Shown piece by piece: positions 1,391 to 29,058 of a stretch of 64,000 nt of DNA (position 1 is its first letter; the number at the start of each line of letters is the position of its first letter). This stretch comes from a virus. A program made the translations under genes and the position numbers. Below the pieces are notes generated by a model. The model saw only the letters and a list, made by a program, of their open reading frames with translations. It ran no database searches and had not been told where the DNA came from. Location of the stretch: positions 1 through 64,000 of IMG/VR virus record IMGVR_UViG_3300009008_000026; one strand, written 5' to 3'.

Positions 1391-4300
1391 ATGTCCGATG
1401 ATATTAAAGCGCCATCGATCATAAAGCTAAGAGAGACGCTAGATGCGATGACAGAAGAGGAGAAGGGTACTGCTGCCATTCCATCATATGATGAACTCGT
1501 AGCAGCTGCCCAGAATAATGAGTTTGCCGAGGGCGTGTGGCAATCCGACTTTACGGTTAATATGGATGATCCGAACCTATATTGGAATAACCAATCAATT
1601 ATTGCGATGAACGATGATAACCACAATTGGAAAGGACCTGAAATGCCGTTCCTCGATGGATCGCCCAATCAGCTGGATGTCTCGACCATATGGGATCTGA
1701 ACGCTGCACTGTCGGTCGTTGCTGCGCAACCCGGTGGCGAATACGGCGCCCGCAGACCCGTTATTCCGACTCGTCCCGGAAATTGGGACCAATTCATTAC
1801 GCATGGCGGTCCTACAACGGGCCCCGGGTCAGAGTGGTATTCTAAAGATGACACCCGCATCGGCAATCGTGCACGTGAAGCCATGGCAGGAACTCCCTAC
1901 TGGGGCGCCCTAATGGGAACCGGTTATGAGATACCCGAACACAACGGTCTTTTTCTTGGCGGCACCTACAAAGATGACACAAACTCGCCATCCGCCGTTA
2001 CCTCTGTCTACCGGGCAACCCGAAAGACGTACACCCCAATCGTTGTGGTCGACCGCATGGACGGCATGCACGCGCGCCCGCGGACAGTAGCTAGCGACGA
2101 TAAGACTACAAAATACAGCTTAAATTCACAACCAGCCACCGCCACCAGTGAAGATTCCGTTATCGCAGCTGCTCAGAGGACTTCCAAAATGTATATGCAG
2201 TTCGCTGCAAATTTAATCAACGGGCTAAGGATGAAACACCTAATGATTGGACCATTCGCGCCTGAAGATTCTTCGGTCGACCCGGGCGATATTTGGAGAG
2301 AGATGAATGGAAAATTTCAGGCATGCCCCGCTACTGTTGGCATGGGGGATTTTAAAGAAGACTGGCTCGAACAGATTGAAGCGTCCATGCCTGATCATCG
2401 CGCCGCATGGCAAGCCCGTATAATCGAGGCTGGTGCAATGAGTGCCGACTACGCGGACTCCGGCGAATCCAAGAAGACAATTGTGCGCTCCACTTTTACC
2501 CGCGGATTAGATAAACAGGGGATGAAAATATTGGAAGTTAGTGATGGCAACCAAGAACAGCGCACCGCGCTGTTCGGCCTAGTTGGCCGCGGCGCCGGCG
2601 ACGATTTTGGACCCTTGCGCTTTAACCAAGCGGGAGCGGTGAAAGCACCCAACCAAACACTAGGGGCTCCTATAATTGATAGCATATCGGATTCGATGTT
2701 CACCCCTGGATATATGGCTCATGCAACTTATATTCCTAGTATACCCACTGTTGCAGAGTCAGATATAAAGGAAAGGGATCATCCTCTATATGGTTACCGC
2801 GGCACAGGAGATGACGCCCCGGAAACAGAAAGGCGCTTCATAAACACCCCCGGCAATCCGGAGGTGTTTGGTGTGTTTCAATCTAAGCCTGTCGTCGCAC
2901 TTTTAGACGACAAAACTATGATAGATTTGGTCAACGAACTCTATAGAAAGTGGTTCCAGTATAGGAATATTGCTGGAGAGATGGCATTGCGTGCATGCGA
3001 CGAGGGCGATGAAAATGCATTGGGAGAAGTGGGCATAGGCGATGAGGAAACAACTGCCGAAGATCTTGAGGCGGCAAATGCAGCTGCAGCTGCAGCAATA
3101 GCTGAAGCAGACGTCATTCTCGCCCTTGCACAGACATCCCCCCTTGAAGCAACCTTTAGAGAGCAGTGCTATCTTCTGTCCGACATTTTCAATTTAGCCG
3201 GCAAACGCCCAACAGATTCAAAGCCACTGCCCTACATTCCACCAGACAATGGCAACGCGATCGCGACAAATGCATCAATCGAGGTTAATGGATCTCCGTT
3301 TGGCTTTATGAATATGCTAACGGGTGATCCAAAGATGTATCCGCTCATGCAAGCGCATCACTCTCAGCTATCCGCATTACAGCCCACAATTCGCCTGTTT
3401 AAGGTAACAGACGAAACTGATGAAGCCGGAAACAGGAGCCAACATGAACAAGAGTTCAATTTCGACTCTCACGAGAAGAACTATAAAGAAACGACTACGG
3501 CAACAATGCTACAGAACTCCCGGACACGCGGTCATGGCGCCGGTATTAAAAACTTTGAGTTCACCTACGATGGAAGCAACCCATTCGCTGCAAAAAAGAG
3601 CATCAAAGCTACACTAACCATTTTCGCCAACAGTTTCGACGAACTAATGAAATTGCGTGGATCCGACGCTGCTAGTCAATATAGGTATTTAGATCTCGCT
3701 CTTAAAACAGGTCGCCGAAACATACCGTCTGAGCAGGGTGATTGCACTGAACCAACTCACCAGCAAGGGTCAAACACCACCGGCAATACAGCACAACAAG
3801 ATGCAGAGTTGGCAAAGCTGCAGTTTAGGCTAAAGGCGGTTGTAGGATATGCCAAACCTCCACGCAACGAATCGGATCCCACTGGTGCCCAGTTCTGGAG
3901 CGTGAGGGATCGCGGCGATCGTATCGGTATTCTCCAAAGAGGAGACAAGGTGTATAATGATGTACACGAAGCGGTATCCCACAGTTTTGTAACCATCAAC
4001 CTGACGCCGACAGTGCATGATTTTGCTTTCGACGATATGGGTCGAGTTACAATGACCATCAAATACTTGGCATATGTAGAGGACTTTTTCGACAGCCCGA
4101 CTTTCAATATCTTCTCAGATCTTGACATTGGAAAAGAGGTGCTGCATCGCAAAATGCGCTTTACAAAGCTGGCGACGTTCTGTGAACAAGAGAAGATGTC
4201 CGAGATCAAAGAGTCCGAAAGCCAAAACATAGCCCAAAATAAGATTGATGCTCTCCAAGCGCTTTTTGCGCGTATGTATACAAGGGGAAAGATAAGAACG

Positions 4301-5944
4301 ATTAACCTGACGTATGATCAGCTAGCCTCTTGGCGGCGGCATGGCCCATATTCGGCTATAGCTTTCACCCCACAAGATGTTGGCACTGCCTCGGCAACCC
4401 TTACTGGCTCTATCGGAATTAATGCCGCCGCCATCTTTGCCGAAGCCATGGCAGACACCGATGCAGAAAGAGCCCGGGCAGCCACCCAGACTCGCCAAAC
4501 CATACTCAGCAATGGTCAAAGCCAGAACATTCAGTTCTTTTACGCCGGCGATCTTGTTGATGAGATACTCGCTGGCATAGAAGAATATTTGGCACCTGAT
4601 GGGATGCGCGCACTCCTTGACGAGAGTGATTATTTTAAGGTCTACCCCACTGACCAAGCCGCGCCCATCACTCAATGCGAAATCGATTTCGAAAAATACA
4701 AGATTGAAAAGTTCGCAGAACAATTTAAGAGGTTTAGGACAGTACTGGGCCCAATAGAGTTAGTAAACCAAGCAAACCTCTCAGACTCGCGGTTCACCAA
4801 TTTCGGCAACGTGCCGGTATCTGTTAAGTATTTTACTGAGTGGCTGACCAAGCAAATGCTCACTAAAGAACGCGCAGAATACCCCCTTCCGCATTTCTTG
4901 AACAACTTCTTTAACATGCTTATTCGAAACTTCCTCAACGACGATACTTGCTTCTCGACAAACATAAAACAAAAAATAAGAGTTAATCAAGCAGTGGTTA
5001 CTGATTACACATCACAAGAAGCATGGAACCGAAAGGCAGAATCTGAATACGAATCAATTGACACACTAACATACGAAACATTAAGATATACAGCTGCTCT
5101 CGGCTCTTACGCGCCCCTGCGTGTTGCCTCTGGGCGCCTCACCTATGGTCCCGATGGGAGAGTAGTCTCGCGCCAACTCGACGCTACGGGTGTAGAATTA
5201 CCACTCCCAGCCCTTAATATATCGGGCCCCGACGGTGATCGCCACAGCACAACGACCGGTCTTGATGGTGGGCTGGACAGAGAAACAAACTATTTGATTT
5301 ACTATGCCGGCAGAACCAAACCAACCGAACAAATGACAGGAGACCCCACAATCGACATCAACAACGGAATCCTTCATTATGGCATGGGGCTCCAGAACGG
5401 CATTGTGAGAGACATTTCTCTCAAAAAGACTGAAGCACCATACCTCCCAGAGGTCAGATTTGAACAAGAGGGGTATGATGGACTACAGCAGTTGAGAGTG
5501 ACCTACGACGCGGATATTAAGACCTTTCCACTGCCAAACGCATTCCCGGGACAATATCTCTATATCGACCCGACCACCTTCGCCCCCGGCGCAGCACTTT
5601 GGGAAGACCGAAATGCCGCCGGCGAGGTATACAACTTAACGCACTTTGGTATAGGTGGGTATTTCATGATAATCAGGTCTACCCACCGATTCGGACCCGG
5701 CGAAGCCACAACCACAATTCAGGCAAAATGGGTCGCAGAACACGAAGGACGCAGCCAAGAAGTTAACGCTGCCGGCGATGCTGTTGATACGGAAGACGGC
5801 GGATCGACCCTCGATCGAGGACGTTGCCACGAGGCACAAAACTTACGAGCATTGGGGTCGCTAGGCGACTATATAGACAGTCCCGAAGAGGAAGAAGCAG
5901 CCCGCGAAGCCCAGTTAAACCCCGAAGTCGCTGAGGGACCATAA
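1391..5944 (+). CDS. Very large virion structural protein (tail/baseplate)
   Basis: 1517 aa, the second largest protein in the window. It is acidic and has no transmembrane segment. A short Ala-rich helical stretch lies near residues 550-580 (AAAAAIAEADV). I recognise no enzymatic motif. The start at 1391 follows a GGGGTGGTG purine-rich stretch. Size and position between the gp53-like gene and another virion-type gene suggest a baseplate, tail or fibre component. The assignment is positional only. The 3' end overlaps the next ATG (TAATG). Confidence 0.55.
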   Translation: MSDDIKAPSIIKLRETLDAMTEEEKGTAAIPSYDELVAAAQNNEFAEGVWQSDFTVNMDDPNLYWNNQSIIAMNDDNHNWKGPEMPFLDGSPNQLDVSTIWDLNAALSVVAAQPGGEYGARRPVIPTRPGNWDQFITHGGPTTGPGSEWYSKDDTRIGNRAREAMAGTPYWGALMGTGYEIPEHNGLFLGGTYKDDTNSPSAVTSVYRATRKTYTPIVVVDRMDGMHARPRTVASDDKTTKYSLNSQPATATSEDSVIAAAQRTSKMYMQFAANLINGLRMKHLMIGPFAPEDSSVDPGDIWREMNGKFQACPATVGMGDFKEDWLEQIEASMPDHRAAWQARIIEAGAMSADYADSGESKKTIVRSTFTRGLDKQGMKILEVSDGNQEQRTALFGLVGRGAGDDFGPLRFNQAGAVKAPNQTLGAPIIDSISDSMFTPGYMAHATYIPSIPTVAESDIKERDHPLYGYRGTGDDAPETERRFINTPGNPEVFGVFQSKPVVALLDDKTMIDLVNELYRKWFQYRNIAGEMALRACDEGDENALGEVGIGDEETTAEDLEAANAAAAAAIAEADVILALAQTSPLEATFREQCYLLSDIFNLAGKRPTDSKPLPYIPPDNGNAIATNASIEVNGSPFGFMNMLTGDPKMYPLMQAHHSQLSALQPTIRLFKVTDETDEAGNRSQHEQEFNFDSHEKNYKETTTATMLQNSRTRGHGAGIKNFEFTYDGSNPFAAKKSIKATLTIFANSFDELMKLRGSDAASQYRYLDLALKTGRRNIPSEQGDCTEPTHQQGSNTTGNTAQQDAELAKLQFRLKAVVGYAKPPRNESDPTGAQFWSVRDRGDRIGILQRGDKVYNDVHEAVSHSFVTINLTPTVHDFAFDDMGRVTMTIKYLAYVEDFFDSPTFNIFSDLDIGKEVLHRKMRFTKLATFCEQEKMSEIKESESQNIAQNKIDALQALFARMYTRGKIRTINLTYDQLASWRRHGPYSAIAFTPQDVGTASATLTGSIGINAAAIFAEAMADTDAERARAATQTRQTILSNGQSQNIQFFYAGDLVDEILAGIEEYLAPDGMRALLDESDYFKVYPTDQAAPITQCEIDFEKYKIEKFAEQFKRFRTVLGPIELVNQANLSDSRFTNFGNVPVSVKYFTEWLTKQMLTKERAEYPLPHFLNNFFNMLIRNFLNDDTCFSTNIKQKIRVNQAVVTDYTSQEAWNRKAESEYESIDTLTYETLRYTAALGSYAPLRVASGRLTYGPDGRVVSRQLDATGVELPLPALNISGPDGDRHSTTTGLDGGLDRETNYLIYYAGRTKPTEQMTGDPTIDINNGILHYGMGLQNGIVRDISLKKTEAPYLPEVRFEQEGYDGLQQLRVTYDADIKTFPLPNAFPGQYLYIDPTTFAPGAALWEDRNAAGEVYNLTHFGIGGYFMIIRSTHRFGPGEATTTIQAKWVAEHEGRSQEVNAAGDAVDTEDGGSTLDRGRCHEAQNLRALGSLGDYIDSPEEEEAAREAQLNPEVAEGP

Positions 5945-7158
5945 TGTCAACATTTTACGCAAAGAACAACAAGGAATCCACAAGAGCACTCTTCAACAAG
6001 AGGTTAATCTACAGAGTCGACTCAAATCCTGAGAATGTACGCCATCTCGTGAATTTCAATTTCGGAGAGAAGGCTCTCTTTGGCAGAGTAGATCGTCAAT
6101 ATATCCCCATTGTCCTTAACTACGACGGTATACTCACAGACCTTAAGGTGCCCCAATTCGCCCAATCGCGCAGCGTTCGTAGCCTGTCGTATGTTACTAA
6201 TGCCTTTAACGATATGGCGCGCGAATTCCGCCGAAAGATAATGCAAGGAGAGATCTCCGGAGATAGCAAGTATTTAGGCGCTATTTCGGCATACAAGGGT
6301 TTAGTTAGCCCAATAAAGGCGTATAACAGCCACATAGAAAATTATGCCCAAGCATTTCGGCAGATCTTTATTACTAGAGATATTAAGGTGAGAGATTTCG
6401 ATGAGTTTGTGGGCTATTTTATGGCGTATATAGAGCGTACCAGTCGAACCATTCCATTTACACAATCAGGCTTTATAAAAAGCCGGCATTCTACCGTAAT
6501 GAACACGGGGCTGGCGATTGAGATTGCTGATCTTGACGCTTCGGACGACGATACTAAAATTCAAGATTTCATTGACGATCCCAACTGGAAGTGTTATGTT
6601 AATATGTGCAATCGCTATGGGTTCATGATCGATAGCAATATACCATGGAGAATTGTGGCAGATATAGGATCAGAAGGAATGAGCACATATACCGCCGGAC
6701 TAGGGCTCGGCACTGCCACAGCCGTGATTGCTGCCCAGTTTAGAAAAGGCTATAGTATTGATAATCAACTACTGGTTAAGACGCTTCTGGGCATTTACGA
6801 CACTGTAAAAAAGCAATCTTTCCAAGAGTTGGAAGTTTGCAATGGGTCCACCATCAGCCACACGATTTATCCCGAAACCTACACAGTCGAGGGGCTAAAA
6901 GAAAAATACTCCCCGGAATATTTCATCGATCTATACTGTAGGATACGGTTCTTCGAGGAGGAGTCGCAGTTCGGACCAGACGAGCAGGCATCTCTTATTG
7001 ACGATTGCTTGGAGATGTCTCACCTTGAAACACCCATCGCCGCACTGAAGGTTTTTGAGATTGTTTTAAATAAACCATTTGACTATCGCGGCTCATTGAG
7101 TTATATTAGAGAAAGCAACAAAGCAAAACGCAAGCTCAAAGAGACGGAGAATGGGTGA
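5944..7158 (+). CDS. Conserved phage protein, probably virion-associated
   Basis: 404 aa, no motif that I recognise. It begins MSTFYAKNNKESTRALFNKR, is rich in Tyr and Phe, and has a predicted alpha/beta composition with no membrane segment. It is coupled to both neighbours: its ATG overlaps the stop of the 1517-aa virion protein, and its stop overlaps the start of the DNA polymerase gene by 4 nt. It therefore sits at the junction of the structural and replication blocks. A virion role is more likely from the upstream operon, but a replication role is possible. Confidence 0.45.
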   Translation: MSTFYAKNNKESTRALFNKRLIYRVDSNPENVRHLVNFNFGEKALFGRVDRQYIPIVLNYDGILTDLKVPQFAQSRSVRSLSYVTNAFNDMAREFRRKIMQGEISGDSKYLGAISAYKGLVSPIKAYNSHIENYAQAFRQIFITRDIKVRDFDEFVGYFMAYIERTSRTIPFTQSGFIKSRHSTVMNTGLAIEIADLDASDDDTKIQDFIDDPNWKCYVNMCNRYGFMIDSNIPWRIVADIGSEGMSTYTAGLGLGTATAVIAAQFRKGYSIDNQLLVKTLLGIYDTVKKQSFQELEVCNGSTISHTIYPETYTVEGLKEKYSPEYFIDLYCRIRFFEEESQFGPDEQASLIDDCLEMSHLETPIAALKVFEIVLNKPFDYRGSLSYIRESNKAKRKLKETENG

Positions 7159-8339
7159 TATTCCAGACAATTGACGATAAATCGGAGTGCGTAGGGATCT
7201 ACGCTGACGGACGCCTTCACTACAATAACTTCCCAGAAGATCTGTCTAAGACGTGGAAGTATACGGGATCGCTCACTGATTCCGATGTTGAATATGCATG
7301 GCTTTATACCGGCGGCAAAACACTCGCAGAAGTGTGCCCCGAAGACCTTCTACCAAGGCTCCAAGCTTCCCAGCGGCGGTCCCGCGCATATATTCGGTCG
7401 TTCGAGATTGCTAAAATCGATCTTCGGGAGCACTGCATATTTGATCTCGTGCCGGAAGACTACCTTAAGGATTTCTGCGAGATTAAGAACAAGATAACAC
7501 AGCACGTATTTGAGACATACGAAAGACCAGAGGTCTATGAACACCAGAGTGAGATCCAAAAGCTTTTGTATAAGATCTCTTACCAAAGGCTAAATTTGAG
7601 TGTTTCGGGCTGCAGGAATCTTCACTATTCGTACCGAAATTCGCAGAAAGTTAAAGAGTTGGTAAATGGTTATCGTCATATTGAGTATAATCTGTTTGGA
7701 ACAGTAACTGGTCGCTTAACAACCACACAGAGTAGCTTTCCTATACTCACAGTTAAGAAAGACTTTCGAAAGCTCTTGAAACCGAACAATGATTGGTTTT
7801 TATCACTAGATTATAATGCCGCTGAAGTTCGAACGTTTATTGGATTAGCCGGCGAAGAGCAGCCTCAAGAAGATGTACATACGTGGCACATAAAGAATCT
7901 CATCGCCGACTCAATAAGCCGGTCTGACGCAAAGGTTAAGTTCTTCGCATGGCTTTACAATCCAGATTCAGCCGACAAGGAGTTTGATCGCTATCATCGA
8001 CAAAAAGTACTTGACAAATGGTATGATGGTGTTTATATTAAGACTATATTCAAACGACGAATTCCGGTTGATAGGAGAAAAGCGTTAAATTACCTTATTC
8101 AAAGCACCACTTCCGATCTTGTACTAGAGCGCGCTGTGGCGATTGATAAATTTTTAGAGGATAAGAAGTCGTTTATCTCTCATATCGTGCATGATGAGAT
8201 CGTAGTAGATCTCGCAGATAGTGAACGAGAGATAGCACCTCAAATAAGAGAAATATTTGCAAACAATAAGATAGGCAATTTTATGGTCAATCTTACCTGT
8301 GGCAAGAACTATTTGGAAATGGAAGAGTTAAAAATATGA
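7155..8339 (+). CDS. Family A DNA polymerase, polymerase domain only
   Basis: 394 aa. The polymerase core of the Pol I/T7 family is visible: TGRLTTTQSSFP near residues 185-196, motif A SLDYNAAEVR (217-226, with the metal-binding Asp), motif B RSDAKVKFFAWLY (about 256-268), an ALNYLIQSTTSD helix (310-321) and motif C HDEIV (346-350). The usual length with a 3'-5' exonuclease is 550-900 aa. Here the first 170 residues carry no DxE exonuclease motif, so proofreading is absent or on another gene, as in phages with split polymerases. It overlaps its neighbours by 4 nt on both sides. A second, family C replicative polymerase is at 25648-29058, so this enzyme may have a gap-filling or specialised role. 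Confidence 0.88.
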   Translation: MIFQTIDDKSECVGIYADGRLHYNNFPEDLSKTWKYTGSLTDSDVEYAWLYTGGKTLAEVCPEDLLPRLQASQRRSRAYIRSFEIAKIDLREHCIFDLVPEDYLKDFCEIKNKITQHVFETYERPEVYEHQSEIQKLLYKISYQRLNLSVSGCRNLHYSYRNSQKVKELVNGYRHIEYNLFGTVTGRLTTTQSSFPILTVKKDFRKLLKPNNDWFLSLDYNAAEVRTFIGLAGEEQPQEDVHTWHIKNLIADSISRSDAKVKFFAWLYNPDSADKEFDRYHRQKVLDKWYDGVYIKTIFKRRIPVDRRKALNYLIQSTTSDLVLERAVAIDKFLEDKKSFISHIVHDEIVVDLADSEREIAPQIREIFANNKIGNFMVNLTCGKNYLEMEELKI

Positions 8340-9190
8340 TCTCAATAATTGGCATTGGCTCTGCTGGATCGGCTATCGCAGAGAGGTTCGCAACTACGGG
8401 TAATTACGACGTTTATATGTTAAATCATAGCGTAAAAGAGAACTCAGATCAAGAGTATAAGACAGAGAACTTTGACTCCCCAGAAGAGTACGAAAACAAC
8501 ATTCCAGACCTGTCAGAGTTTTTTGCGAATGTGCGTGATCGAGTGCAGGTATTCGTCATGGGCTCCTCAATGAGTTCAAACTATGTTTTGGGAATCCTCC
8601 AGCAAATAAGCCATAAACAGATAGACCTATTCTATATTAAGCCAGACACAGAACTTCTTACTGGGATGCCCCGTGTTGTGGAAAGGGTTGTTTTTGGAGT
8701 CTTGCAAGAATACGCGCGCTCTGGTATGTTTAGGTCGCTTACGTTGATCTCGAATCTAGATCTGGAAACAGCGCTTGGTGAAGTGCCGATTAAGACATAT
8801 TACGACACCCTGAATCAAAGCATATTCTCGACCGTTCACCACCTCAACTATTTCGAGTTCTCCGATCCGGAGATTGGACAAGTTTCCAAACCAGCCGCCA
8901 TGAATAGAATCCGAACAATAGGATTCCTCGATATCAAGAGGCTTAAAGAAAAGTTTCTTTTTCCCCTTGACACCCCTCGCGAGCTATGTTATTATATCTG
9001 TATAAACGATGAAAGGCTCGCTACTGAAGGCGGACTACACAAGAAACTGGTCGATATGCTAAAGAGTAAACCGAAGAATGCATTTCTAAAAATGTCATAT
9101 GCGATATATGGCACTCCACATGCAGATTTCGGATTTGTTGTGGCACATACAAATGTGATTCAGCAAGAAAAAGTGCTTGACAACGAATAA
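8336..9190 (+). CDS. FtsZ/tubulin-superfamily-like protein
   Basis: 284 aa. The layout matches the GTPase half of FtsZ/TubZ/PhuZ: an N-terminal IIGIGSAGSAI loop (residues 4-14, tubulin T1-like), a strand plus MGSSMSSN turn (75-82) where the T4 signature GGGTGSG would lie, IDLFYIKPD (96-104, like FtsZ 'VVTKPF'), then LTLISNLDLETALG (135-148) and YYDTLNQSIFSTV (155-167), which follow the FtsZ pattern 'LITIPNDKLL...AFGAANDVL'. The T4 glycines are largely lost, so GTP hydrolysis may be weak or absent. It sits between DNA polymerase and ssDNA-binding genes, with 4-nt overlap to the polymerase. Phage tubulins position replicating DNA in some large phages; that role here is inference. A plain Rossmann-fold protein is the alternative. 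Confidence 0.6.
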   Translation: MISIIGIGSAGSAIAERFATTGNYDVYMLNHSVKENSDQEYKTENFDSPEEYENNIPDLSEFFANVRDRVQVFVMGSSMSSNYVLGILQQISHKQIDLFYIKPDTELLTGMPRVVERVVFGVLQEYARSGMFRSLTLISNLDLETALGEVPIKTYYDTLNQSIFSTVHHLNYFEFSDPEIGQVSKPAAMNRIRTIGFLDIKRLKEKFLFPLDTPRELCYYICINDERLATEGGLHKKLVDMLKSKPKNAFLKMSYAIYGTPHADFGFVVAHTNVIQQEKVLDNE

Positions 9191-9289: not shown

Positions 9290-10057
9290 ATGGGTATTAA
9301 CATGGAGCTAATGCGCAACAAGCTCGCAAACTTGCGCGGAGAAAATAAACAAGATACGAACAGTGTTTGGTTCAAGCCAGACGCCGGAGACACTAGCATC
9401 CGAATGGTGCCGACGAATGATGGAGATCCTCTTAAGGAAATGTTCTTCCATTATAACGTTGGAGATCATCGTGGCGGCATTTTGTGTCCTAAGCGTAACT
9501 TTGGGGAGAAGTGTCCAATCTGCGACTTTGCTTCTACTCTATGGCGCGAAGGAACCGATAACAATGACGAAGCCAGCAAAGATTTAGCAAAGTCCCTGTT
9601 CGTTCGAACCCGATATTTCAGCCCCGTCGTAGTGCGTGGCAAAGAAGATGAGGGCATTAAGGTTTACGGGTACGGCAAGCAAGCTTACGGTCTGCTGCTT
9701 GGATATGTGCTCGATCCTGATTATGGAGACATCACAGATGCCACGGAAGGTACAGATATTGTGCTGACCTACACTAAAGCTACCGGTCCCGGCAGCTTCC
9801 CCAAGACCAACCTAAAAATGCGTCGTAAATCATCCCCCTTGCTTGAGGACACGGAAGCTATCCCCGCCCTCCTTGATGGCATGCCGAATTTTGACACTCT
9901 ATTTGAGCGTCTTACTCCGGAGCAAGTTGACGCTATTCTCGATGAGCAACTCGCCGGAGACGGATCCGCCGAAACGCGATCATCTGAGACTACCAAGTAC
10001 AATACTCGTGCAACGTCTGACGTAGATCGTGCGTTTAATGAACTAGTAGCTGGTTAG
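9290..10057 (+). CDS. Single-stranded DNA-binding protein, T4 gp32-like
   Basis: 255 aa. The N-terminus is basic (RNKLANLRGENK). The core has a gp32-type zinc site with Cys66, Cys75 and Cys78 (ILCPKRNFGEKCPIC) and a His at about 60. The C-terminus is acidic and flexible, as expected for the tail of gp32 that contacts replication partners. Such proteins coat single strands in replication and recombination and help load helicase and UvsX. The start is fixed by AAGGAG 6-7 nt upstream. It is the only gene between its own promoter (9177) and a strong terminator (10072), so it is monocistronic and separately controlled. Confidence 0.88.
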   Translation: MGINMELMRNKLANLRGENKQDTNSVWFKPDAGDTSIRMVPTNDGDPLKEMFFHYNVGDHRGGILCPKRNFGEKCPICDFASTLWREGTDNNDEASKDLAKSLFVRTRYFSPVVVRGKEDEGIKVYGYGKQAYGLLLGYVLDPDYGDITDATEGTDIVLTYTKATGPGSFPKTNLKMRRKSSPLLEDTEAIPALLDGMPNFDTLFERLTPEQVDAILDEQLAGDGSAETRSSETTKYNTRATSDVDRAFNELVAG

Positions 10058-10145: not shown

Positions 10146-10952
10146 GTGAAGACACCATTACGATACCCCGGCGGCAAAACACGAGCAGTTAAGCACATTT
10201 TGCCACTCATTCCAGATGATGTTGAGCGGGTGTGTTCTCCGTTTTTCGGAGGTGGCTCCGTCGAGATGGCACTAGCCAACAAAGGCGTGAAGGTATTTGG
10301 TTATGACAAGATGAAGCAGCTTGTTTGGTTTTGGAACGCCTTATGTGGAGACAGTGAACGCTTGGCTGACGAGGTAGAAAGCCTCCGCGAAACCTTTGTT
10401 GATCGCAACGGCAACAGTGTTATCGGATGCTCCAAAGAGTCATTTCAGAGTTTTAGAGAGGATCTTAAGACTGATTCATTCATGTTCAGCTATGAGCGAG
10501 CAGCCAAGTTCTATGCTATCAATAGATCAAGCTTCTCGGGCGCAACGTTTAGCGGCGGCTGGTCAGAGAAAGCCGCCACAGCACGATTCACAGATAGTTC
10601 AGTTCAGCGCCTTCGAGATTTCAAAGCGGAGAACTTCCGAGTCGATTATGCAGACTTCGAGAATGCCATTCTAAGCCACCCTAAAGCCTTCCTCTACCTA
10701 GACCCCCCTTACATGCTTGAAACCAGTCAGAACTCATTATACGGCGTTAATGGCGACCTTCACAAAGGCTTTGAGCACGAGAAACTTCATTCCATCTTAT
10801 CAACACGAGATCGGTGGGTTATGTCATATAATGACTGTGAGGAGATCAGAGAAATGTATAAAGACTACGAGATCATCGCAGCAGAATGGTCTTATGGGAT
10901 GAACAAGAGCAAGAAATCGTCAGAGATTATTATAACAAATTATGGGAGATAA
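10146..10952 (+). CDS. D12-class DNA N6-adenine methyltransferase (first copy)
   Basis: 268 aa, GTG start. The Dam/D12 family pattern is clear: TPLRYPGGK at residues 3-11, the SAM-binding FFGGGSVE (33-40), an alpha-helical DNA-contact region, and catalytic DPPY at 186-189. It transfers a methyl group from SAM to adenine N6 in a short DNA site. It is followed directly by an EcoRI/MunI-like endonuclease gene and then a second D12 methylase, suggesting a restriction-modification unit. The target site cannot be read from sequence. A degenerate paralogue of this protein is at 41540-42304. Confidence 0.88.
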   Translation: MKTPLRYPGGKTRAVKHILPLIPDDVERVCSPFFGGGSVEMALANKGVKVFGYDKMKQLVWFWNALCGDSERLADEVESLRETFVDRNGNSVIGCSKESFQSFREDLKTDSFMFSYERAAKFYAINRSSFSGATFSGGWSEKAATARFTDSSVQRLRDFKAENFRVDYADFENAILSHPKAFLYLDPPYMLETSQNSLYGVNGDLHKGFEHEKLHSILSTRDRWVMSYNDCEEIREMYKDYEIIAAEWSYGMNKSKKSSEIIITNYGR

Positions 10953-10954
10953 AC

Positions 10955-11440
10955 ATGGGTGCAAACGCACTATCAAATAGAGACAATTGGCAGGACTTGG
11001 CAGGAAAGACAGGTAAGAACGGAGAGACCACATTTGCGTCTGCGGTGCGCTTTCGGCTACCGCCGCACTATGAGGTGGTTGAGAACCCACCTAAGCTGAC
11101 GATTTATTCGGATGGCAAGGGCATTGTGCTGGACACCAAGATTACGAACACCAAGACAGGTAAGAGCCTTTATGTCGAAAAGAAGACGGGCAACAAGGGT
11201 GGTAACGCGCATGAACGTGTGTACAAATATCTTTCCGAGCCGTTAAAGCGACTCGTGCGCCACAACGATCCTTCCTTGGCAGATGAGCCCTTCTTTCTAG
11301 TCTTCTCAGGCACTACTTTTGAAGGACAGAAGTATCAAGACGAAATAAAACTCTTGCTTGAGGACGCAAACTATGCAATAATAGAACAAGGATTTGCGAA
11401 CATCGATCAAGTTGTGAATCAAATCATGGAGATTGTTTAA
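10955..11440 (+). CDS. MunI/EcoRI-family type II restriction endonuclease
   Basis: 161 aa from the ATG at 10955; a longer in-frame start at 10886 would overlap the methylase and lacks support. The N-terminus MGANALSNRDNWQDLAG resembles R.MunI. The PD-(D/E)XK core is visible as Asp60, then Glu75 and Lys77 (YVEKK), with the same spacing as MunI Asp83/Glu98/Lys100. It is followed by GNAHERVYKYL (83-93), matching the family motif GNAHER (MunI) / GNAIER (EcoRI), whose Arg contacts DNA. MunI and EcoRI cut C- or G-flanked AATT sites; the exact site here is unknown. It is shorter than MunI (about 200 aa). It ends in an ATG overlap with the next methylase. Confidence 0.8.
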   Translation: MGANALSNRDNWQDLAGKTGKNGETTFASAVRFRLPPHYEVVENPPKLTIYSDGKGIVLDTKITNTKTGKSLYVEKKTGNKGGNAHERVYKYLSEPLKRLVRHNDPSLADEPFFLVFSGTTFEGQKYQDEIKLLLEDANYAIIEQGFANIDQVVNQIMEIV

Positions 11441-12306
11441 TGAAACCGTTATTTATGTGGGCTGGTGGCAAGAACAAGATGCTCAAGAAGTATGCGAATT
11501 ATCTCCCTGAACAGTTCGATAGCTACATCGAGCCCTTCTTGGGAGGCGGTGCTATGTTTGTGTGGGCTTACAAGAAAAACCCCGAAGCGACATTCTTCCT
11601 AAATGATGTAAACGAAGACATCATGAGAATTTACCAGTCGATTCGCAATGACGTAGGCAATTTTCTTACCACACTGGACAAGTACCAAGAGGACTTCCTG
11701 CCACTCTCGAAGCCCGAGCGCAAAAAGTTCTATTATGCTCTGCGTCAAGAACACGCATACAACTATCAAAAGTGGACAGCCACAGAAGAAGCAGCAACCC
11801 TGTACTTTCTGATGAAGACGGGATTCAATGGAATCTGGCAGATCAACAAAAATACTAATGGTCGGTTCGGCACTCCGAGTGGCTTGTTAAATCAGAAAGA
11901 TAAGGTCTATGATTATGATAACGTGATGGAGTGGCACGAAGCGCTGCAAAAGTGCACGCTGATCTCTGGCGATTTTACTGATTGTCTTGAATACGCACAA
12001 CCTAATAGCTTTGTTTTTCTAGACCCTCCTTATCGAGGCTCCTTCACCCAGTACGGTGTTTTTTTTGATGACACGCTGCAGCTGAGGGTAATTAAACTAC
12101 TAAATGACTTGACATCCGCCGGCTGCCATGTTATGATGTCTAATAGAGATGTGGGAGATGGGTTCTTCGAATCTCGGCAGGGAGATAATGACCTTGTTTA
12201 TTTTGACGTAACGTACACTGCTGGTCGTCGAAAGAAAAACACGGATGGAACGCATAGCGCCAAAAAGGCTAGAGAAATTTTAATGATAGGAGAGCACAAT
12301 GGCTAG
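11440..12306 (+). CDS. D12-class DNA N6-adenine methyltransferase (second copy)
   Basis: 288 aa. It has the Dam/DpnM-type layout: FMWAGGK (5-11), the SAM-binding EPFLGGGAMF (31-40), NDVNEDIMRIY (55-65), a central KTGFNGIWQIN segment (126-136) and catalytic FLDPPY (193-198). This copy is closer to classical Dam/DpnM than the first. Its start overlaps the endonuclease stop (TAATG), and its end overlaps the UvsX start by 8 nt, so endonuclease and methylase should be made together. It probably protects the phage genome from the adjacent nuclease, from host restriction, or both. Confidence 0.88.
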   Translation: MKPLFMWAGGKNKMLKKYANYLPEQFDSYIEPFLGGGAMFVWAYKKNPEATFFLNDVNEDIMRIYQSIRNDVGNFLTTLDKYQEDFLPLSKPERKKFYYALRQEHAYNYQKWTATEEAATLYFLMKTGFNGIWQINKNTNGRFGTPSGLLNQKDKVYDYDNVMEWHEALQKCTLISGDFTDCLEYAQPNSFVFLDPPYRGSFTQYGVFFDDTLQLRVIKLLNDLTSAGCHVMMSNRDVGDGFFESRQGDNDLVYFDVTYTAGRRKKNTDGTHSAKKAREILMIGEHNG

Positions 12307-13450
12307 AAAAGCCAAAACTAAACCCGGAAAGGTTTCAATGCAAGACTTGAGAAAGCTTGTTAATCAAAAAGCCGGCAGAAATGTCGCACACAACTTAACG
12401 GAAGCAAATCCGACAGAGGTAAAAGATTGGATCCCAACAGGTTCTAGGTGGTTAGATAGTATTATTTGCAAAGGTCAGCTCGCTGGAATTCCCGTCGGTA
12501 AAATTACCGAGATTGCGGGGTTAACATCTACAGGCAAGTCTTACATGGCAGCACAAATTGCAGCCAACGCCCAGAAGCAAGGCAAATTGGTTGTATATTT
12601 CGATTCGGAGTCTGCGATTGATCCGACTTTCTTGGAGTCTGCAGGCTGTGTTTTGGATGACCTCATGTATGTACAGGCATCATCTGTCGAATTCGTATTA
12701 GAGATGATCGAGGAGCTTCTTGGTGCAACAGACGAGAAGATCTTGTTTGTGTGGGATTCGCTGGCTTTCACTCCCGCTATTTCCGATGTAGAGGGTGATT
12801 TCAACCCTCAATCATCTATGGCAGTGAAAGCACGTATTCTTGCTAAGGGAATGTCTAAGATTACTCTCCCGATTGCAGATAAGCAAGCAACTCTCCTCGT
12901 ATTGAACCAGCTTAAGGACAACATTACCAGCGGCCCTCTCGCCCGTATAACGGCGATGACTACGCCCTATATCACTCCGGGTGGTAAAGCTTTGGTCTAT
13001 TCATATAGTCTAAGGATCTGGCTCACAGGAAGAAAGGCCAAATCAGCTTTTGTGTTGGACGATAAGGGCTATCGAGTAGGATCGGAGGTTAAGGTCAGGA
13101 TTGAAAAATCTAGATTTGGAACTCAGGGTCGCAATTGTGCTTTTCGCATCATGTGGGGCTCAGTTGATATCGGCGTTCGAGACGAAGAAAGCTGGTTTGA
13201 TGCCATTAAAGGATCTGATAATCTCACTTCTGCGGGGGCGTGGTATACACTTAAAACAGACAATTATGAAAAGAAATTTCAACCATCTAAGTGGGTTGCA
13301 CTAATTAATAGCGATACCGAGTTCCGCGAGCATGTTGAAAAAATCATGGATGAAGAGATTATCTATAGATTCAGCAACCGATCCGGCAACGCAACAGACT
13401 TTTATGAAGAACCAGAAGATATTTCAATACCAGTAGGAAAAACAAAATGA
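12299..13450 (+). CDS. UvsX/RecA-like recombinase
   Basis: 383 aa. RecA-fold ATPase: Walker A AGLTSTGKS (73-81), YFDSESAID (100-108) and Walker B ILFVWDSLA (148-156). The length is close to T4 UvsX (391 aa). It forms helical filaments on ssDNA coated with the gp32-like protein and drives strand invasion for recombination-dependent replication and repair. Its start lies inside the end of the methylase gene with an AGGAG ribosome site, and the stop overlaps the next gene by 4 nt. Confidence 0.9.
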   Translation: MARKAKTKPGKVSMQDLRKLVNQKAGRNVAHNLTEANPTEVKDWIPTGSRWLDSIICKGQLAGIPVGKITEIAGLTSTGKSYMAAQIAANAQKQGKLVVYFDSESAIDPTFLESAGCVLDDLMYVQASSVEFVLEMIEELLGATDEKILFVWDSLAFTPAISDVEGDFNPQSSMAVKARILAKGMSKITLPIADKQATLLVLNQLKDNITSGPLARITAMTTPYITPGGKALVYSYSLRIWLTGRKAKSAFVLDDKGYRVGSEVKVRIEKSRFGTQGRNCAFRIMWGSVDIGVRDEESWFDAIKGSDNLTSAGAWYTLKTDNYEKKFQPSKWVALINSDTEFREHVEKIMDEEIIYRFSNRSGNATDFYEEPEDISIPVGKTK

Positions 13451-18243: not shown

Positions 18244-19228
18244 TACAACTAAGAAACGAATATTAATTTTTGATGCTTTGAACGCATATTTGAGGGCATA
18301 CATAGTTGACCCGAGCCTTTCAACGAACGGAGATCCGATCGGCGGAATCAAGGGGTTCATTAAGATCTTGCAACGACACGTTCGCGAGACAAGCCCGGAT
18401 CAAATCGTTATCGTTTGGGACGGACCAAACGGCTCTCGCAAGCGCAAGAGCGTAGACAAGAACTACAAGGCAGGACGGAAACCCATTCGGCTAAACCGAG
18501 CTTTCCACAACCTCACAGACGACGAAGAACTGCAAAATAAGATGTGGCAACAAACACGCCTCATAGAATATTTTAACAATATGCCGATTATCCAGTTTAT
18601 GCTCCCAGAGGTAGAGGCTGATGATGTGATTGCTTTTATCACTCAGATGCCAGAGTATAAGGGTTGGCAAAAGATCGTCGTTTCAAATGACAAAGACTTT
18701 ATGCAGTTGTGCGACGACGAAACAATTCTCTGGCGCCCCACCCAGAACGAGATCCTCAATAAGAAAAGTATTATTGAGAAGACCGGCGTTCACCCTGTCA
18801 ATATGGCGCTAGCACGCGCAATTGTTGGCGACACTAGTGATAATCTTCCGGGTGTTAAAGGGGCTGGCTTTGCGACGGTGAGTAAACGCTTGAACTTTTT
18901 GTCAGATTCAAAGATTTACACAATTGATGATGTTATTGAATTCTGCGAGAAGACGAGTGCGAAACTTAAAATCTTTAACAATATCACAGAGAACCGAAAA
19001 CTCATTGAGCACAACTACAAGATGATGCAGCTATATGCACCCCAATTATCGGTGCAGGGTAAAGATCATGTACGATATTCTATTGAAAACTTTGAGTGCG
19101 ACTTTAACAGGACGGATGTTATTAGGATGATGAGAGAGGATGGCTTCGGCGAATTAAATTGGGAAGATCTCCGTGCCGGGTTGAATAAAGTTCGCAAGGG
19201 ATGCACTAATACAACTGGTGGAGTATAA
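18230..19228 (+). CDS. 5'-3' exonuclease / RNase H (FEN family)
   Basis: 332 aa. FEN/T4 RNase H pattern: RILIFDALNAYLRA at the N-terminus with the first metal-binding Asp, IVIVWDGPNGSRKRK near 60-75, PEVEADDVIAFI (acidic cluster) and VVSNDKDFMQLC, then a helix-hairpin-helix-like VGDTSDNLPGVKGAG. It removes RNA primers and flaps from lagging-strand fragments. The length is close to T4 RNase H (305 aa). Confidence 0.88.
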   Translation: MTNTSTTKKRILIFDALNAYLRAYIVDPSLSTNGDPIGGIKGFIKILQRHVRETSPDQIVIVWDGPNGSRKRKSVDKNYKAGRKPIRLNRAFHNLTDDEELQNKMWQQTRLIEYFNNMPIIQFMLPEVEADDVIAFITQMPEYKGWQKIVVSNDKDFMQLCDDETILWRPTQNEILNKKSIIEKTGVHPVNMALARAIVGDTSDNLPGVKGAGFATVSKRLNFLSDSKIYTIDDVIEFCEKTSAKLKIFNNITENRKLIEHNYKMMQLYAPQLSVQGKDHVRYSIENFECDFNRTDVIRMMREDGFGELNWEDLRAGLNKVRKGCTNTTGGV

Positions 19229-24768: not shown

Positions 24769-25658
24769 CAGCACGCTCACATTTAGCCGGGATTATCCCC
24801 GTTGCCGGACTGAAGACAGATTACGACATAGCCACACCAGAGTACCTACTACCCGTTGATCCCGGATTCACCGCTATTCAGAAGGCGGTTTATGAGTGCG
24901 CACTAGCAGGTTGCCAGACGATCTGGATTGTTGCCAACGACGACACTGCACCAATAATCCGTACGATTATTGGTGAATGGATCTACGATCCTGTGTACTT
25001 TTCGAACCCACATATAAGATTTTCCAGTGAACACCGGCGAGAGATTCCAATATATTATGCCCCCATTCATCCGAAGGATCGTGATCGCCGCGACAGCTAT
25101 GGCTGGTCCATCCTGCACGGGATTAACAGTGCGTGGAGAACAGCTACTCGCATATCTAAATGGGTTGTGCCCGATAAGTATTACGTCTCTTTCCCCATGA
25201 ATGCTCATAATGTATATAACATCAGGCGCCAGCGTTTGAAGATCTCCGACACGACTAAGAACTGGTTCATGACGCACGAGGGGAAAACCGTAAAGGATAA
25301 TATCCCGCTCCCATTTACTATGTTTGGGCAGGATTATATCCATTGCCGCCGGCATGTCAACAAACAGACAACGAGGCAGTTTCTCAACCCGCCCCCCGGC
25401 GAGATGCCTACCGAGAAGCTCCCTCTCCATGAGAGGTGGTCGGCCCGCCACTTTGATTTCGAAGAGATTTTCGATGCTGTTTGCACCACTGATGCTCACA
25501 TGGAAAAAGCTGATTGGTTCTATGATATTACCAATTGGGAAGGCTATAAGAGTTTCCTTGGATCAGAGAATTTTATAAAAAAACCAATAAATGACTTGAT
25601 TAAACCTCACGGACATGTTAAGTTACCATATAGAGAGGGAGAAATAAATGACGATTAA
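24765..25658 (+). CDS. Nucleotidyltransferase-like (GT-A fold) protein, tentative
   Basis: 297 aa. The N-terminus GIIPVAGLKTDYDIATPEYLLPV, followed by FTAIQKAVYECALAGCQTIWIVAND, follows the layout of sugar-phosphate nucleotidyltransferases (a GxAGxG-type loop, then PK-x-LLPV, then 'AGI..I.IVT'). The key K and R residues of the first loop are changed, so activity is uncertain. Its end overlaps the DNA polymerase III alpha start by 11 nt. Confidence 0.45.
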   Translation: MTARSHLAGIIPVAGLKTDYDIATPEYLLPVDPGFTAIQKAVYECALAGCQTIWIVANDDTAPIIRTIIGEWIYDPVYFSNPHIRFSSEHRREIPIYYAPIHPKDRDRRDSYGWSILHGINSAWRTATRISKWVVPDKYYVSFPMNAHNVYNIRRQRLKISDTTKNWFMTHEGKTVKDNIPLPFTMFGQDYIHCRRHVNKQTTRQFLNPPPGEMPTEKLPLHERWSARHFDFEEIFDAVCTTDAHMEKADWFYDITNWEGYKSFLGSENFIKKPINDLIKPHGHVKLPYREGEINDD

Positions 25659-28600
25659 GTTCGTAGGGCTTCACGCCCATAGTGTAGCAGGTTCAATTTT
25701 TGATGCGATTGGGTACCCAGACGCCCACATGAATTATTGTTTTGAGAACGGTGGAGATGCGCTAGCACTCACGGATCACGGTAATATGAACGGACTAGCC
25801 GCTCAAGTACTGCATGCAAAGAAGATGCAGGCGGAAGGTAAGAACTTCAAGCCTATCTTTGGAGTTGAAGCATATTTCACCACATCGGTTAAGGAATGGA
25901 GAGAGGCTTATGACGAGGCTATGGCTGACAAGAAGAAAGCCCGGGCTACCAAAAAGACAGCCCAATCAGGTGCAACGACAGAGGATGAGGGAAACACAAA
26001 AGCTGCGCAGCCGATCCTTAAGCGCCGGCGCCACTTAATCCTCCTCGCACAGAATCAAACTGGACTGAACAACTTGTTCAAGCTAATCTCGAAGAGCTAC
26101 ACGGAAGAATACTTCTATAGATACCCACGAATGGACTACGGCCTCCTTAGAGAGCACTCGGAGGGCATTATCGCCGCGTCTGCATGCTTGGGAGGGGTGT
26201 ATGCCGGCAACTACTGGGAGAACCGAGAGGAAGGTTCTGAAGCCGTCCTAGAAGCTATGCGCGAAACCACACGTGAAATGGTGTCAATCTTCGGTGATCG
26301 CTGGTACGCAGAGTTACAATGGAATAACATCCCAGAACAGCACGAACTAAACAAATACATAATCCAGATCGCCAAAGAGTTTGATCTTAAGATGATCTCA
26401 ACAGCGGACAGTCACTATCCAGACCCTGACGCATGGAAAGATCGTGAGATGTATAAGCGCTTAGGCTGGCTTGGTCGCGGAACTCCATCATGGGGAGAAG
26501 GATCAGAGTTGCCGTCAGGTGTGGAAGAGATCGGATACGAGCTTTATCCCAAGAATGGCGAGCAAATGTGGGAAAGCTACAAGAGCTATTGCAAATCAAC
26601 AGGATTTGAATATGATGATGACTTGGTGATGGACAGCATTACCGAGACGTACGACATCGCACACAATCGCATTGAGGACTTCTTCCCTGACACAACCGTG
26701 CGCTTGCCCGATTTTGTTGTACCGGCTGATTCTACCGCCACACAGGCGCTAGTAAACTATGCTCTAGAGGGTTTGAGGCAGAGAAATCTACACAAGAACT
26801 CAGAATACATGGAGCGCCTCAAACACGAGCTTAATGTTATTGATGACCGTGGCTTCTCAAAGTACTTCCTAACGATGAAAGCAATCGCCGACGAAGCTAC
26901 TACGCAGATGCTGGCAGGTCCCGGTCGCGGGTCAGCAGCCGGCTCACTAGTGGCTTACTCTCTGGGGATTACACAAGTTGATCCGATTAAACATGGGCTC
27001 CTGTTCTCACGTTTCTTGCGCTCGGATGCTACTGACTATCCTGATATTGATTATGATGTGTCTGATAGTATGGCACTTAAGGAGCGCCTTGTCGAGATGT
27101 GGGGTGAAGATACAGTCGCCCCCATTTCCAACTGGAACACTCTCCAATTGAAATCTCTTATCAAGGACATCTCAAAGCTCCACGGCATTCCTTTCACAGA
27201 GGTCAACAGTGTTACTAGTACGATGATCCGCGAAGCGACACCAGCAGCGAAACAGAGACATGGCATTAAGGCAGGTGTTTACGTGCCGACTTGGGAAGAG
27301 GTAATAGAGTTTTCACCAACCCTACAATCGTTTCTCACAAGGCATCCCGAGGTGCATGCGCGTGTTGAGGGGCTTGTGGGACAAGTCCGGTCATGCTCGC
27401 GACATGCTGGTGGGGTGGTGGTCGCTGAGAACCTCGACCAGTACATGCCGCTAATCAACTCCGGCGGTGTACGACAATCTCCGTGGGCAGAAGGGCAGAA
27501 CGTTCGACACCTTGAGCCGATGGGCTTCATTAAGTTCGATTTGCTTGGGCTCTCTACTCTTAAGATGATGGAGGGTTGCATCGAACACATCTTGCGCCGC
27601 CATCACGGGGTAGCTGAACCAACCTTTGAACAGGTTCGAGAGTATTACAACGAGAAGTTACACCCAGACACTATCAACATGAGCGATAGCGAGGTCTATG
27701 AAAACGTCTTCCACGCTGGGAGATGGGCAGGTATTTTCCAGTTCACAGAGCAGGGTGCACAGGGTTTCTGCAAGAAAGCAAAGCCCGAAAGCATAGTTGA
27801 TATCTCAGCTGTAACCTCGATTTTCCGTCCAGGACCATTGTCCGCCGGCGTTGACACTGACTATGTGGAAGCGAAGACACACCCACAGTATGTGTCGTAT
27901 TTGTCAGAAGACGCTCGCGAGATCACCGAAGAGACTTTCGGGTTCCTCATCTTTCAGGAGCAGATTGCTCTACTGGCTCATAAGCTTGGTGGGCTGACGC
28001 TTGATGAGGGCAACATGCTCCGCAAGGTGTTGACCAAGAAGGGAACTGGTAAGGGTGGTATTAAAACCAAGCTTAGAGTTAAGTTCGTTGACGGCTGCAA
28101 GGCAAACGGTATCGACAGTGATGCTGCAAATAGCCTGTGGGATAAGTTCGAGTTCTTCTCCGGCTATGGCTTCAATAAATCACATGCCGTGTCCTACAGC
28201 ATCATCTCGTTCCAGTGTGCTTGGCTGTGGAACTACTATCCCGCAGAGTGGATGGCAGCGTTCCTCGACAAAGAGCCGGAGAGTAGAAAAGAGAAGGCGA
28301 TCAATATTGCAAAGAAGTATGGATTCGATATCGCACCGTTGGATATCAACAAGTCCGGTACCGTGTGGGAGATTAGCGACGATGGGAAGACCCTCATTCA
28401 ACCCTTGACCTCTATCAAGGGGCTCGGCATGAGCGCCATTGAGCAGATTCTAGACAACCGACCATTCACTAACGCAGAAGATCTGTTATTCCGCGAAGGA
28501 GTATCGTACAGCAAGTTCAACAAGAAAGCTCTCGATGCTCTCTGCAGAGGCGGAGCCCTAGACAACATTATCGATGATAGGTTTACGGGACGCAAGCACT

Positions 28601-29058
28601 TCTGGTCTGCATGTGTGGTCGAGAGGCCAAAGAATTTAAAGAAGCTAGCCGAGAATATGGAAACGTATAAGCCAGAAGGCGACTTCTCTGAAGAAGAGGT
28701 GATCCAGTTCAAGACAGACCTGACTGGTATCTTCCCAATCAACCTTGTGATCAACTTAGAGACGATTGAGAAGCTGAAAGAGAAGTTTGTCCCACCAATC
28801 TCGGAGTTCGATGAGGAGTTGCAGTTGTGCTGGTTCATCCCCCGCAAAGTAACCGAGAGAAAGACGAAGAACGGAAAGCTCTATTGGGTCTTGGAAGTCA
28901 TTGATAGCAATAACGAACTCACCCGGATTAGGTGCTGGGGTGTCAAGCCGCACGACTCGGTACAGGTTAACCGACCCTACATGAGCCGGCTGAACTACGA
29001 TCCAGATTGGGGCTTCTCAACGAGATCTATTCGACATAACTTTAGGTTGTTGGGGTAA
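25648..29058 (+). CDS. dnaE: DNA polymerase III alpha subunit (family C replicative polymerase)
   Basis: 1136 aa, full bacterial DnaE length. A PHP domain is at the N-terminus, with GLHAHSV (7-13) and LALTDHGN (39-46) keeping metal ligands. The polymerase active site shows GPGRGSAAGSL (424-434) and PDIDYD (465-470, two catalytic Asp). Downstream are FQEQIALLAHKLGG, SHAVSYSIISFQCAWL, and a helix-hairpin-helix-like region with a C-terminal OB part. It should be the main replicase. The same phage also carries a family A polymerase (7155). No clamp or clamp-loader gene is seen in this window. Confidence 0.93.
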   Translation: MTIKFVGLHAHSVAGSIFDAIGYPDAHMNYCFENGGDALALTDHGNMNGLAAQVLHAKKMQAEGKNFKPIFGVEAYFTTSVKEWREAYDEAMADKKKARATKKTAQSGATTEDEGNTKAAQPILKRRRHLILLAQNQTGLNNLFKLISKSYTEEYFYRYPRMDYGLLREHSEGIIAASACLGGVYAGNYWENREEGSEAVLEAMRETTREMVSIFGDRWYAELQWNNIPEQHELNKYIIQIAKEFDLKMISTADSHYPDPDAWKDREMYKRLGWLGRGTPSWGEGSELPSGVEEIGYELYPKNGEQMWESYKSYCKSTGFEYDDDLVMDSITETYDIAHNRIEDFFPDTTVRLPDFVVPADSTATQALVNYALEGLRQRNLHKNSEYMERLKHELNVIDDRGFSKYFLTMKAIADEATTQMLAGPGRGSAAGSLVAYSLGITQVDPIKHGLLFSRFLRSDATDYPDIDYDVSDSMALKERLVEMWGEDTVAPISNWNTLQLKSLIKDISKLHGIPFTEVNSVTSTMIREATPAAKQRHGIKAGVYVPTWEEVIEFSPTLQSFLTRHPEVHARVEGLVGQVRSCSRHAGGVVVAENLDQYMPLINSGGVRQSPWAEGQNVRHLEPMGFIKFDLLGLSTLKMMEGCIEHILRRHHGVAEPTFEQVREYYNEKLHPDTINMSDSEVYENVFHAGRWAGIFQFTEQGAQGFCKKAKPESIVDISAVTSIFRPGPLSAGVDTDYVEAKTHPQYVSYLSEDAREITEETFGFLIFQEQIALLAHKLGGLTLDEGNMLRKVLTKKGTGKGGIKTKLRVKFVDGCKANGIDSDAANSLWDKFEFFSGYGFNKSHAVSYSIISFQCAWLWNYYPAEWMAAFLDKEPESRKEKAINIAKKYGFDIAPLDINKSGTVWEISDDGKTLIQPLTSIKGLGMSAIEQILDNRPFTNAEDLLFREGVSYSKFNKKALDALCRGGALDNIIDDRFTGRKHFWSACVVERPKNLKKLAENMETYKPEGDFSEEEVIQFKTDLTGIFPINLVINLETIEKLKEKFVPPISEFDEELQLCWFIPRKVTERKTKNGKLYWVLEVIDSNNELTRIRCWGVKPHDSVQVNRPYMSRLNYDPDWGFSTRSIRHNFRLLG

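Follow-up and report, generated by a model that had tools for sequence, protein, structure and literature searches.

A predicted tubulin-fold protein with degenerate GTPase motifs, fixed in the replication cluster of T4-related phages that also encode a canonical tubulin

Very common phages related to T4 apparently encode two proteins of the tubulin superfamily, one of which is GTPase-degenerate and locked in the replication operon. The gene for the degenerate protein, here called B-type, lies in the window, the 64,000-nucleotide stretch analysed here (positions 1 to 64,000 of the IMG/VR record IMGVR_UViG_3300009008_000026); the second gene, called A-type, is found in relatives of this virus and has the hallmarks of a canonical tubulin/FtsZ. 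From the fold, the motifs and the genomic setting we infer, with roughly even confidence, that the B-type protein is a pseudo-GTPase tubulin subunit that partners the A-type protein and couples it to replication.

A viral gene family with a fixed place in the replication cluster

The B-type gene sits among the replication genes of the window as follows.

7155..8339, + strand: family-A DNA polymerase, N-terminally truncated, 394 aa (PolA-like); PF00476 E 3.3e-14; constant upstream neighbour
8336..8339, + strand: 4-bp ATGA overlap of the PolA stop and the B-type start
8336..9190, + strand: B-type ORF, ATG start, 284 aa; protein of predicted tubulin/FtsZ fold with degenerate GTPase motifs (models and alignment)
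9290..10057, + strand: gp32-like SSB; PF08804 E 1.1e-15; constant downstream neighbour
12299..13450, + strand: UvsX/RecA-like recombinase of the same cluster

The original prediction had placed the gene between a DNA polymerase and an SSB gene, and this setting holds not only in the window, where the PF00476 and PF08804 matches flank the ORF, but family-wide. Among the first 179 related loci, a PolA-like gene lies upstream in 174 of 174 and gp32 downstream in 167 of 167 cases in which the contig reaches that far. The overlap between the polymerase stop and the B-type start, which is expected to couple their translation, is equally constant: all 216 distinct members that have upstream sequence show NTGA at the start codon, that is, an overlap with an upstream stop, and for 186 of the ATGA cases the stop was confirmed to close an upstream ORF of 200 codons or more. 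On the other side, 99 bp separate the end of the B-type gene from the gp32-like SSB gene.

The wider gene order comprises a 112-aa ORF, two large ORFs (1517 and 404 aa), PolA, the B-type gene, gp32, an optional methyltransferase/restriction cassette and UvsX. In the window, the cassette (10146-12306) resembles a type II restriction-modification system, with a MunI-like restriction enzyme flanked by two D12 adenine methyltransferases, and sits between gp32 and UvsX; only some relatives have one. The 1517-aa protein (1391-5944) is without a PHROG match, and its first 1200 residues are without a Pfam match; its sequence varies far more than those of its neighbours (identities mostly 30-50%), and it is probably a virion structural protein. 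The window encodes two DNA polymerases. The PolA-like protein (7155-8339) has palm and finger motifs and keeps HDE in motif C, and an exonuclease domain was not seen in it; the other, at 25648-29058, is a DnaE-like Pol III alpha with 1136 aa.

We gathered 217 distinct B-type sequences, all of them viral. Scans of IMG/VR confirmed 125, 466, 578 and 565 relatives, depending on the patterns used; these counts are lower bounds and the sets overlap. No relatives were found in isolate phages or GTDB genomes. Strong purifying selection on the gene is strongly supported, with a median dN/dS of 0.056 and a maximum of 0.162 at a median dS of ~1.1 (44 independent close pairs from the 217 distinct sequences). 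Because it has hundreds of IMG/VR relatives and so low a median ratio, the ORF is a real protein-coding gene rather than a chance reading frame. The B-type family is an undescribed viral family, and its gene is a core gene of a large uncultured lineage of T4-related ('far-T4') phages.

Predicted fold of the B-type protein

An AlphaFold2 model built from an alignment with the window protein as lead sequence reached a pLDDT of 88.4 and a pTM of 0.88. A second model, led by a member 57% identical to the window protein (L179) and built from a different alignment, reached a pLDDT of 87.8 and had nearly identical secondary structure. In Foldseek searches, the window-led model, compared with 350,542 PDB chains, gave 664 matches below 1e-3 (best E 3.8e-11, TM up to 0.74, ~10-15% identity), and the L179-led model gave 793 PDB matches below that threshold (best E 6.9e-13). 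The best 50 were all FtsZ or TubZ in both searches, and the FtsZ/TubZ matches aligned over approximately the full chain at a TM of ~0.7 and 10-16% identity. Five matches below 1e-3 were found in BFVD: two unnamed proteins and three phage proteins annotated as 'FtsZ Cell division GTPase', 'Cell division protein' and, in a jumbo phage, 'tubulin-like protein'.

Judged by these models, the B-type protein almost certainly has the tubulin/FtsZ fold, with two domains and a central helix H7. Such a fold had been proposed from the letters of the window, and the contrary outcome, some other fold, did not appear, because FtsZ and TubZ filled the top 50 places for two separately built models. The proposal had also held that a T1-like loop, a T4-like turn, a LISN segment and a YYDTLNQSI segment follow the order of FtsZ; in the two models these map to S1-H1, S3-T4-H3, S5-T6 and H7, in that order. 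Both models lack helix H8, and in both a short strand replaces the H9 region.

Sequence comparisons gave far fainter signals. PF00091 matched neither the window protein nor 33 aligned members nor five further members. Searches of Pfam and PHROGs, including PHROG 4733 (PhuZ), gave no match for the B-type protein; only sub-threshold Pfam signals appeared, mostly to Rossmann dehydrogenase models. FtsZ homology was sought with Pfam and PHROGs, with phmmer and hmmsearch against the PDB, and with hhalign, for which the targets were FtsZ (sets of 8 and 60 sequences), PhuZ and the A-type family; nothing convincing emerged. For the B-type family, hhalign probabilities were 2-4%, and the register of the FtsZ alignment differed between runs. 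The hhalign score with PhuZ was 25.7, against a maximum of 23.9 among 60 column-shuffled controls, at a probability of only 3.7%; with the A-type viral tubulin it was 24.3 against a shuffled maximum of 23.4, and with FtsZ it was 22.4 against 23.5, within the null. In an unguided profile alignment with PhuZ, both T1 (GIGSAGSAIAERF / CGGAGFRIGELF) and T4 (VFVMGSSMSSNYVLGIL / VVYSMGGASGSTIGPSL) fell in register. Weak PDB matches to uteroglobin fusion peptides and cysteine synthase, together with Pfam matches to Rossmann and GARS_N models, were judged to be chance or generic. Homology of the B-type family to tubulin/FtsZ is therefore argued from predicted structure, and the sequence is no more than suggestive.

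Degenerate GTPase motifs

The segments that correspond to the tubulin/FtsZ GTPase loops are located in the window as follows.

8351..8374, + strand: T1-like loop GIGSAGSA, residues 6-13 (family alignment; in register with PhuZ T1)
8561..8584, + strand: T4-like turn GSSMSSNY, residues 76-83, in place of GGGTG(S/T)G (family and profile alignment)
8750..8755, + strand: T6-like Ser-Asn, S139 and N140 (N140 in 215/217; model secondary structure)
8813..8815, + strand: N160, in the N-terminal part of the H7-like core helix (217/217; model secondary structure)
8855..8881, + strand: T7-like loop EFSDPEIGQ, residues 174-182 (models and alignment)

The GxG of the T1-like loop is kept (G6 in 215 and G8 in all of the 217 members), and the fuller GxGxxGxN form occurs in a minority, with N13 in 61 of 217, as in the GIGDAGCN of L446. 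The loss of the T4 glycines, already remarked on for the window protein, extends to the entire family: GGGTG is missing from 217 of 217 distinct members, and in its place stands a conserved GSSxSSNY (G76 in 217, S80 in 202, N82 in 201 and Y83 in 203 members). The LISN segment carries N140 and YYDTLNQSI carries N160; we infer that these two residues occupy the guanine-contact positions of FtsZ and tubulin, an assignment made by the order of secondary-structure elements rather than by superposed coordinates. The acids of the T7 motif NxDxxD are not conserved in the family, and residues 174-182 contain no DxxD. Residue 177 is acidic in only 176 of 217 members and is T, S or N in 36; the region reads (E/D)PEIG in most members and TPLVG or TPIVG in the clade of L446.

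It is thus very likely that the B-type protein is not a canonical GTPase; its site is degenerate and probably non-hydrolysing, yet still under constraint. Loop by loop, conservation did not clearly separate the nucleotide face from the opposite face, and we therefore do not count it as evidence for head-to-tail assembly.

Because the canonical T4 and T7 motifs and a PF00091 match are lacking, the B-type protein should not be classed as FtsZ or PhuZ. With FtsZ (PF00091) it shares the predicted full-chain fold, the order of strands and helices, the GxG of the T1-like loop and Asn residues at the putative T6 and H7-start positions; it differs in having no GGGTG(S/T)G, T7 NxDxxD, H8 or C-terminal tail, in its low identity (10-15%), in being PF00091-negative and in lying in a phage replication cluster. 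PhuZ, the phiKZ TubZ (PHROG 4733), is likewise a phage-encoded protein of tubulin fold, with T1 and T4 in profile register, but it is a single active GTPase of 327 aa from nucleus-forming jumbo phages, whereas the B-type protein is degenerate, has ~284 aa, comes from T4-related viruses and is paired with a second tubulin. The divergent prokaryotic FtsZ/tubulin relatives FtsZl-1 and FtsZl-2 (Makarova and Koonin 2010, PMC2875224) were sought by their GGGTG(S/T)G loop, which is missing in the B-type family, and that paper mentions no phage.

A canonical tubulin in the same genomes

When six large related contigs were searched with PF00091, four proved to have a canonical tubulin/FtsZ ORF of ~380 aa. 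When 31 records (that of the window and 30 B-type-carrying relatives) were searched with an A-type alignment, the gene was found in eight, in two of which the contig end truncates it; conversely, 6 of 16 large A-type-carrying contigs had a B-type gene. Fourteen contigs carry both, and these are all of the contigs that span both positions. The A-type gene lies upstream of the B-type gene, at a distance of 39-45 kb. The absence of any counter-example reflects the fact that no contig with only one of the two genes extends over such a distance; by their listed coordinates, the largest reach 35.0 kb (G010) and 35.4 kb (G034). The window's record has no PF00091 match anywhere, since only 8.3 kb lie upstream of its B-type gene.

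An example of the A-type gene, at L342:1297-2448 on contig IMGVR_UViG_3300025131_000007, follows a gp46-like (SMC_N) gene. Other A-type genes are at L343-L345, L354-L361 and L362-L441, and 74 distinct A-type sequences were collected. The protein has an acidic N-terminal extension, a T1 of VGVGGGGNK, a T4 of AGGGGGTGSS, in which GGGTG is present in 74 of 74, and a T7 of SFDSKDLE (FDxKDLE, with DxxD). It matches PF00091 at E 1.7e-10, one divergent member falling 0.1 bit below the cut-off, and its hhalign probability is 96.5% against FtsZ and 86% against PhuZ. IMG/VR holds 215 relatives; there were no close relatives in isolates, only gp138 of Bacillus phage G (E 8e-4). By its sequence, then, the A-type protein is a canonical tubulin/FtsZ, with the PF00091 match, GGGTG and the T7 DxxD all present.

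The two types belong to the same virus lineage and the same superfamily, but the A-type protein is longer, has full T1, T4 and T7 motifs, matches PF00091, is far more conserved (mean identity within the collected samples of 87%, compared with 57% for B-type) and is encoded beside a gp46-like gene. With a second, canonical tubulin/FtsZ encoded ~40 kb away, the B-type gene is best viewed as half of a pair.

Relation to far-T4 isolates

A T4-type gp23 was found in six large relatives, and its nearest isolate counterparts are those of Flavobacterium phage immuto (50%), Microcystis phage Mel-JY01 (48%) and Rhodothermus phage RM378 (39%). On gp23 sequence, the nearest isolates are therefore far-T4 phages. 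No gp23 was found in the window's own record, presumably because that record starts downstream of this module.

In both immuto and Mel-JY01, structural genes are followed by a PolA-like gene, small ORFs, gp32 and UvsX, and within the regions examined no tubulin was detected in the slot between the PolA-like gene and gp32. In far-T4 phages other than the window's lineage, the slot holds a conserved ORF of ~130 aa with the motif HRKKxxNTLYTINALN (L277:8971-9360, L530:1346-1801 and L529 about 18764-19171). We dropped the idea that split tubulins fill the slot in immuto and Mel-JY01, as reading of the sequences and a profile search showed this unrelated ORF. Since these phages have the slot but no tubulin in it, the slot is older than the B-type gene, which has so far been found only in the lineage of the window. 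Motif C of the PolA-like protein reads YDAF rather than HDE in Mel-JY01 and immuto (L277:7694-8920 and L530:1-1326), so that a loss of polymerase activity may be under way in these phages.

Discussion

Known phage tubulins (PhuZ and TubZ) are single active GTPases, mainly of nucleus-forming jumbo phages and plasmid-like phages. In the mechanism that we favour, the B-type protein would be made together with the replication proteins, and the A-type protein would form GTP-dependent filaments. The B-type protein would bind the A-type protein as a non-hydrolysing partner, be it a mixed subunit, a cap or a nucleator, and would link the filaments to the replication complex, thereby positioning replicating phage DNA or holding it together. 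The parts of this proposal differ in strength. That the B-type protein acts in replication or DNA positioning seems to us an evenly balanced proposition, and that it does so through the A-type protein falls slightly short of even. The most specific form, a two-component cytoskeleton in which a GTPase (A) and a pseudo-GTPase (B) co-assemble or cap each other and tether or position replicating DNA, is put forward tentatively. Co-occurrence within one virus lineage could reflect shared core-gene content without interaction, and the location of the two genes in different clusters speaks against pairing. Also unfavourable to the mechanism is the tubulin-free slot of the related phages immuto and Mel-JY01.

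The setting of the gene also suits a different role: the tubulin fold may have been co-opted for a replication accessory factor that does not polymerise but partners the truncated PolA, or gp32, in a clamp-, loader- or chaperone-like manner and is unconnected with the A-type protein. The absolute PolA linkage and the 4-bp overlap across more than 200 distinct sequences argue for such a factor, as do the lost GTPase motifs and the missing H8 and shortened H9 region of the models, H8 and the H9 region being part of the lower subunit interface in FtsZ. We nevertheless consider it doubtful: it leaves the canonical tubulin in every checkable genome unexplained, and we know of no tubulin-superfamily protein with a replication accessory role. 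Were the Ser-rich GSSxSSNY instead to serve as a phosphate loop, the B-type protein could be an active, non-canonical nucleotide-dependent polymer that self-assembles. This loop is conserved rather than drifting, and the corresponding loop of phiKZ PhuZ also deviates (GGASGST), but the T7 acids are missing in part of the family (the 36 members with T, S or N at residue 177) and H8 is absent from both models, making self-polymerisation quite unlikely.

FtsZ is a common phage target, and a GTPase-dead subunit of FtsZ fold that retains a T1-like GxG and the putative base-contact Asn could cap host protofilaments, so that the B-type protein would bind the host division protein as a decoy and block septation, the second function suggested in the original prediction. 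We favour this less and regard it as improbable, because the gene is a constrained core gene, with strong purifying selection and conserved synteny rather than a variable early-gene locus, and because similarity to cellular FtsZ is undetectable in sequence, whereas mimics tend to retain the interface; a viral FtsZ-like partner is, moreover, already present in the same genome. We consider it highly improbable that AlphaFold2 and Foldseek have placed a simple Rossmann-type NAD(P)-binding protein near FtsZ through resemblance. The only Pfam signals are indeed sub-threshold and mostly to dehydrogenase models at the N terminus (F420_oxidored E 0.0056), but both models have hundreds of PDB matches below 1e-3 (664 and 793), the top 50 are exclusively FtsZ/TubZ and align over approximately the full chain, and the dehydrogenase-like matches in BFVD are far weaker and partial.

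Under the favoured pairing of A-type and B-type proteins, the closest parallels are alpha/beta tubulin and BtubA/BtubB, in which GTP binding is retained by the two subunits and their co-assembly is proven. Each of these systems, like the phage one, has two tubulin-fold proteins; GTP binding and co-assembly by the A-type and B-type proteins are putative, however, and their genes lie ~40 kb apart. The window also carries a GroEL-like chaperonin gene (39123-40703; PF00118 E 9e-68, PHROG 5725). Its presence fits the reported co-occurrence of jumbo-phage tubulins with HSP60 (PMC7824862) but proves nothing. Among open-access titles and abstracts, we found no report of a GTPase-degenerate tubulin fixed in a replication operon alongside a second, canonical tubulin, and Pfam and PHROGs contained none either.

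If the A-type and B-type proteins cooperate, tubulin pairs with one inactive partner arose in viruses too, and viral intracellular organisation extends to T4-type phages; the two proteins would also make a compact system in which the effect of a pseudo-GTPase tubulin on a filament could be studied. If the two-component reading is true, these phages would hold a counterpart of the two-subunit tubulins outside the nucleus-forming jumbo phages.
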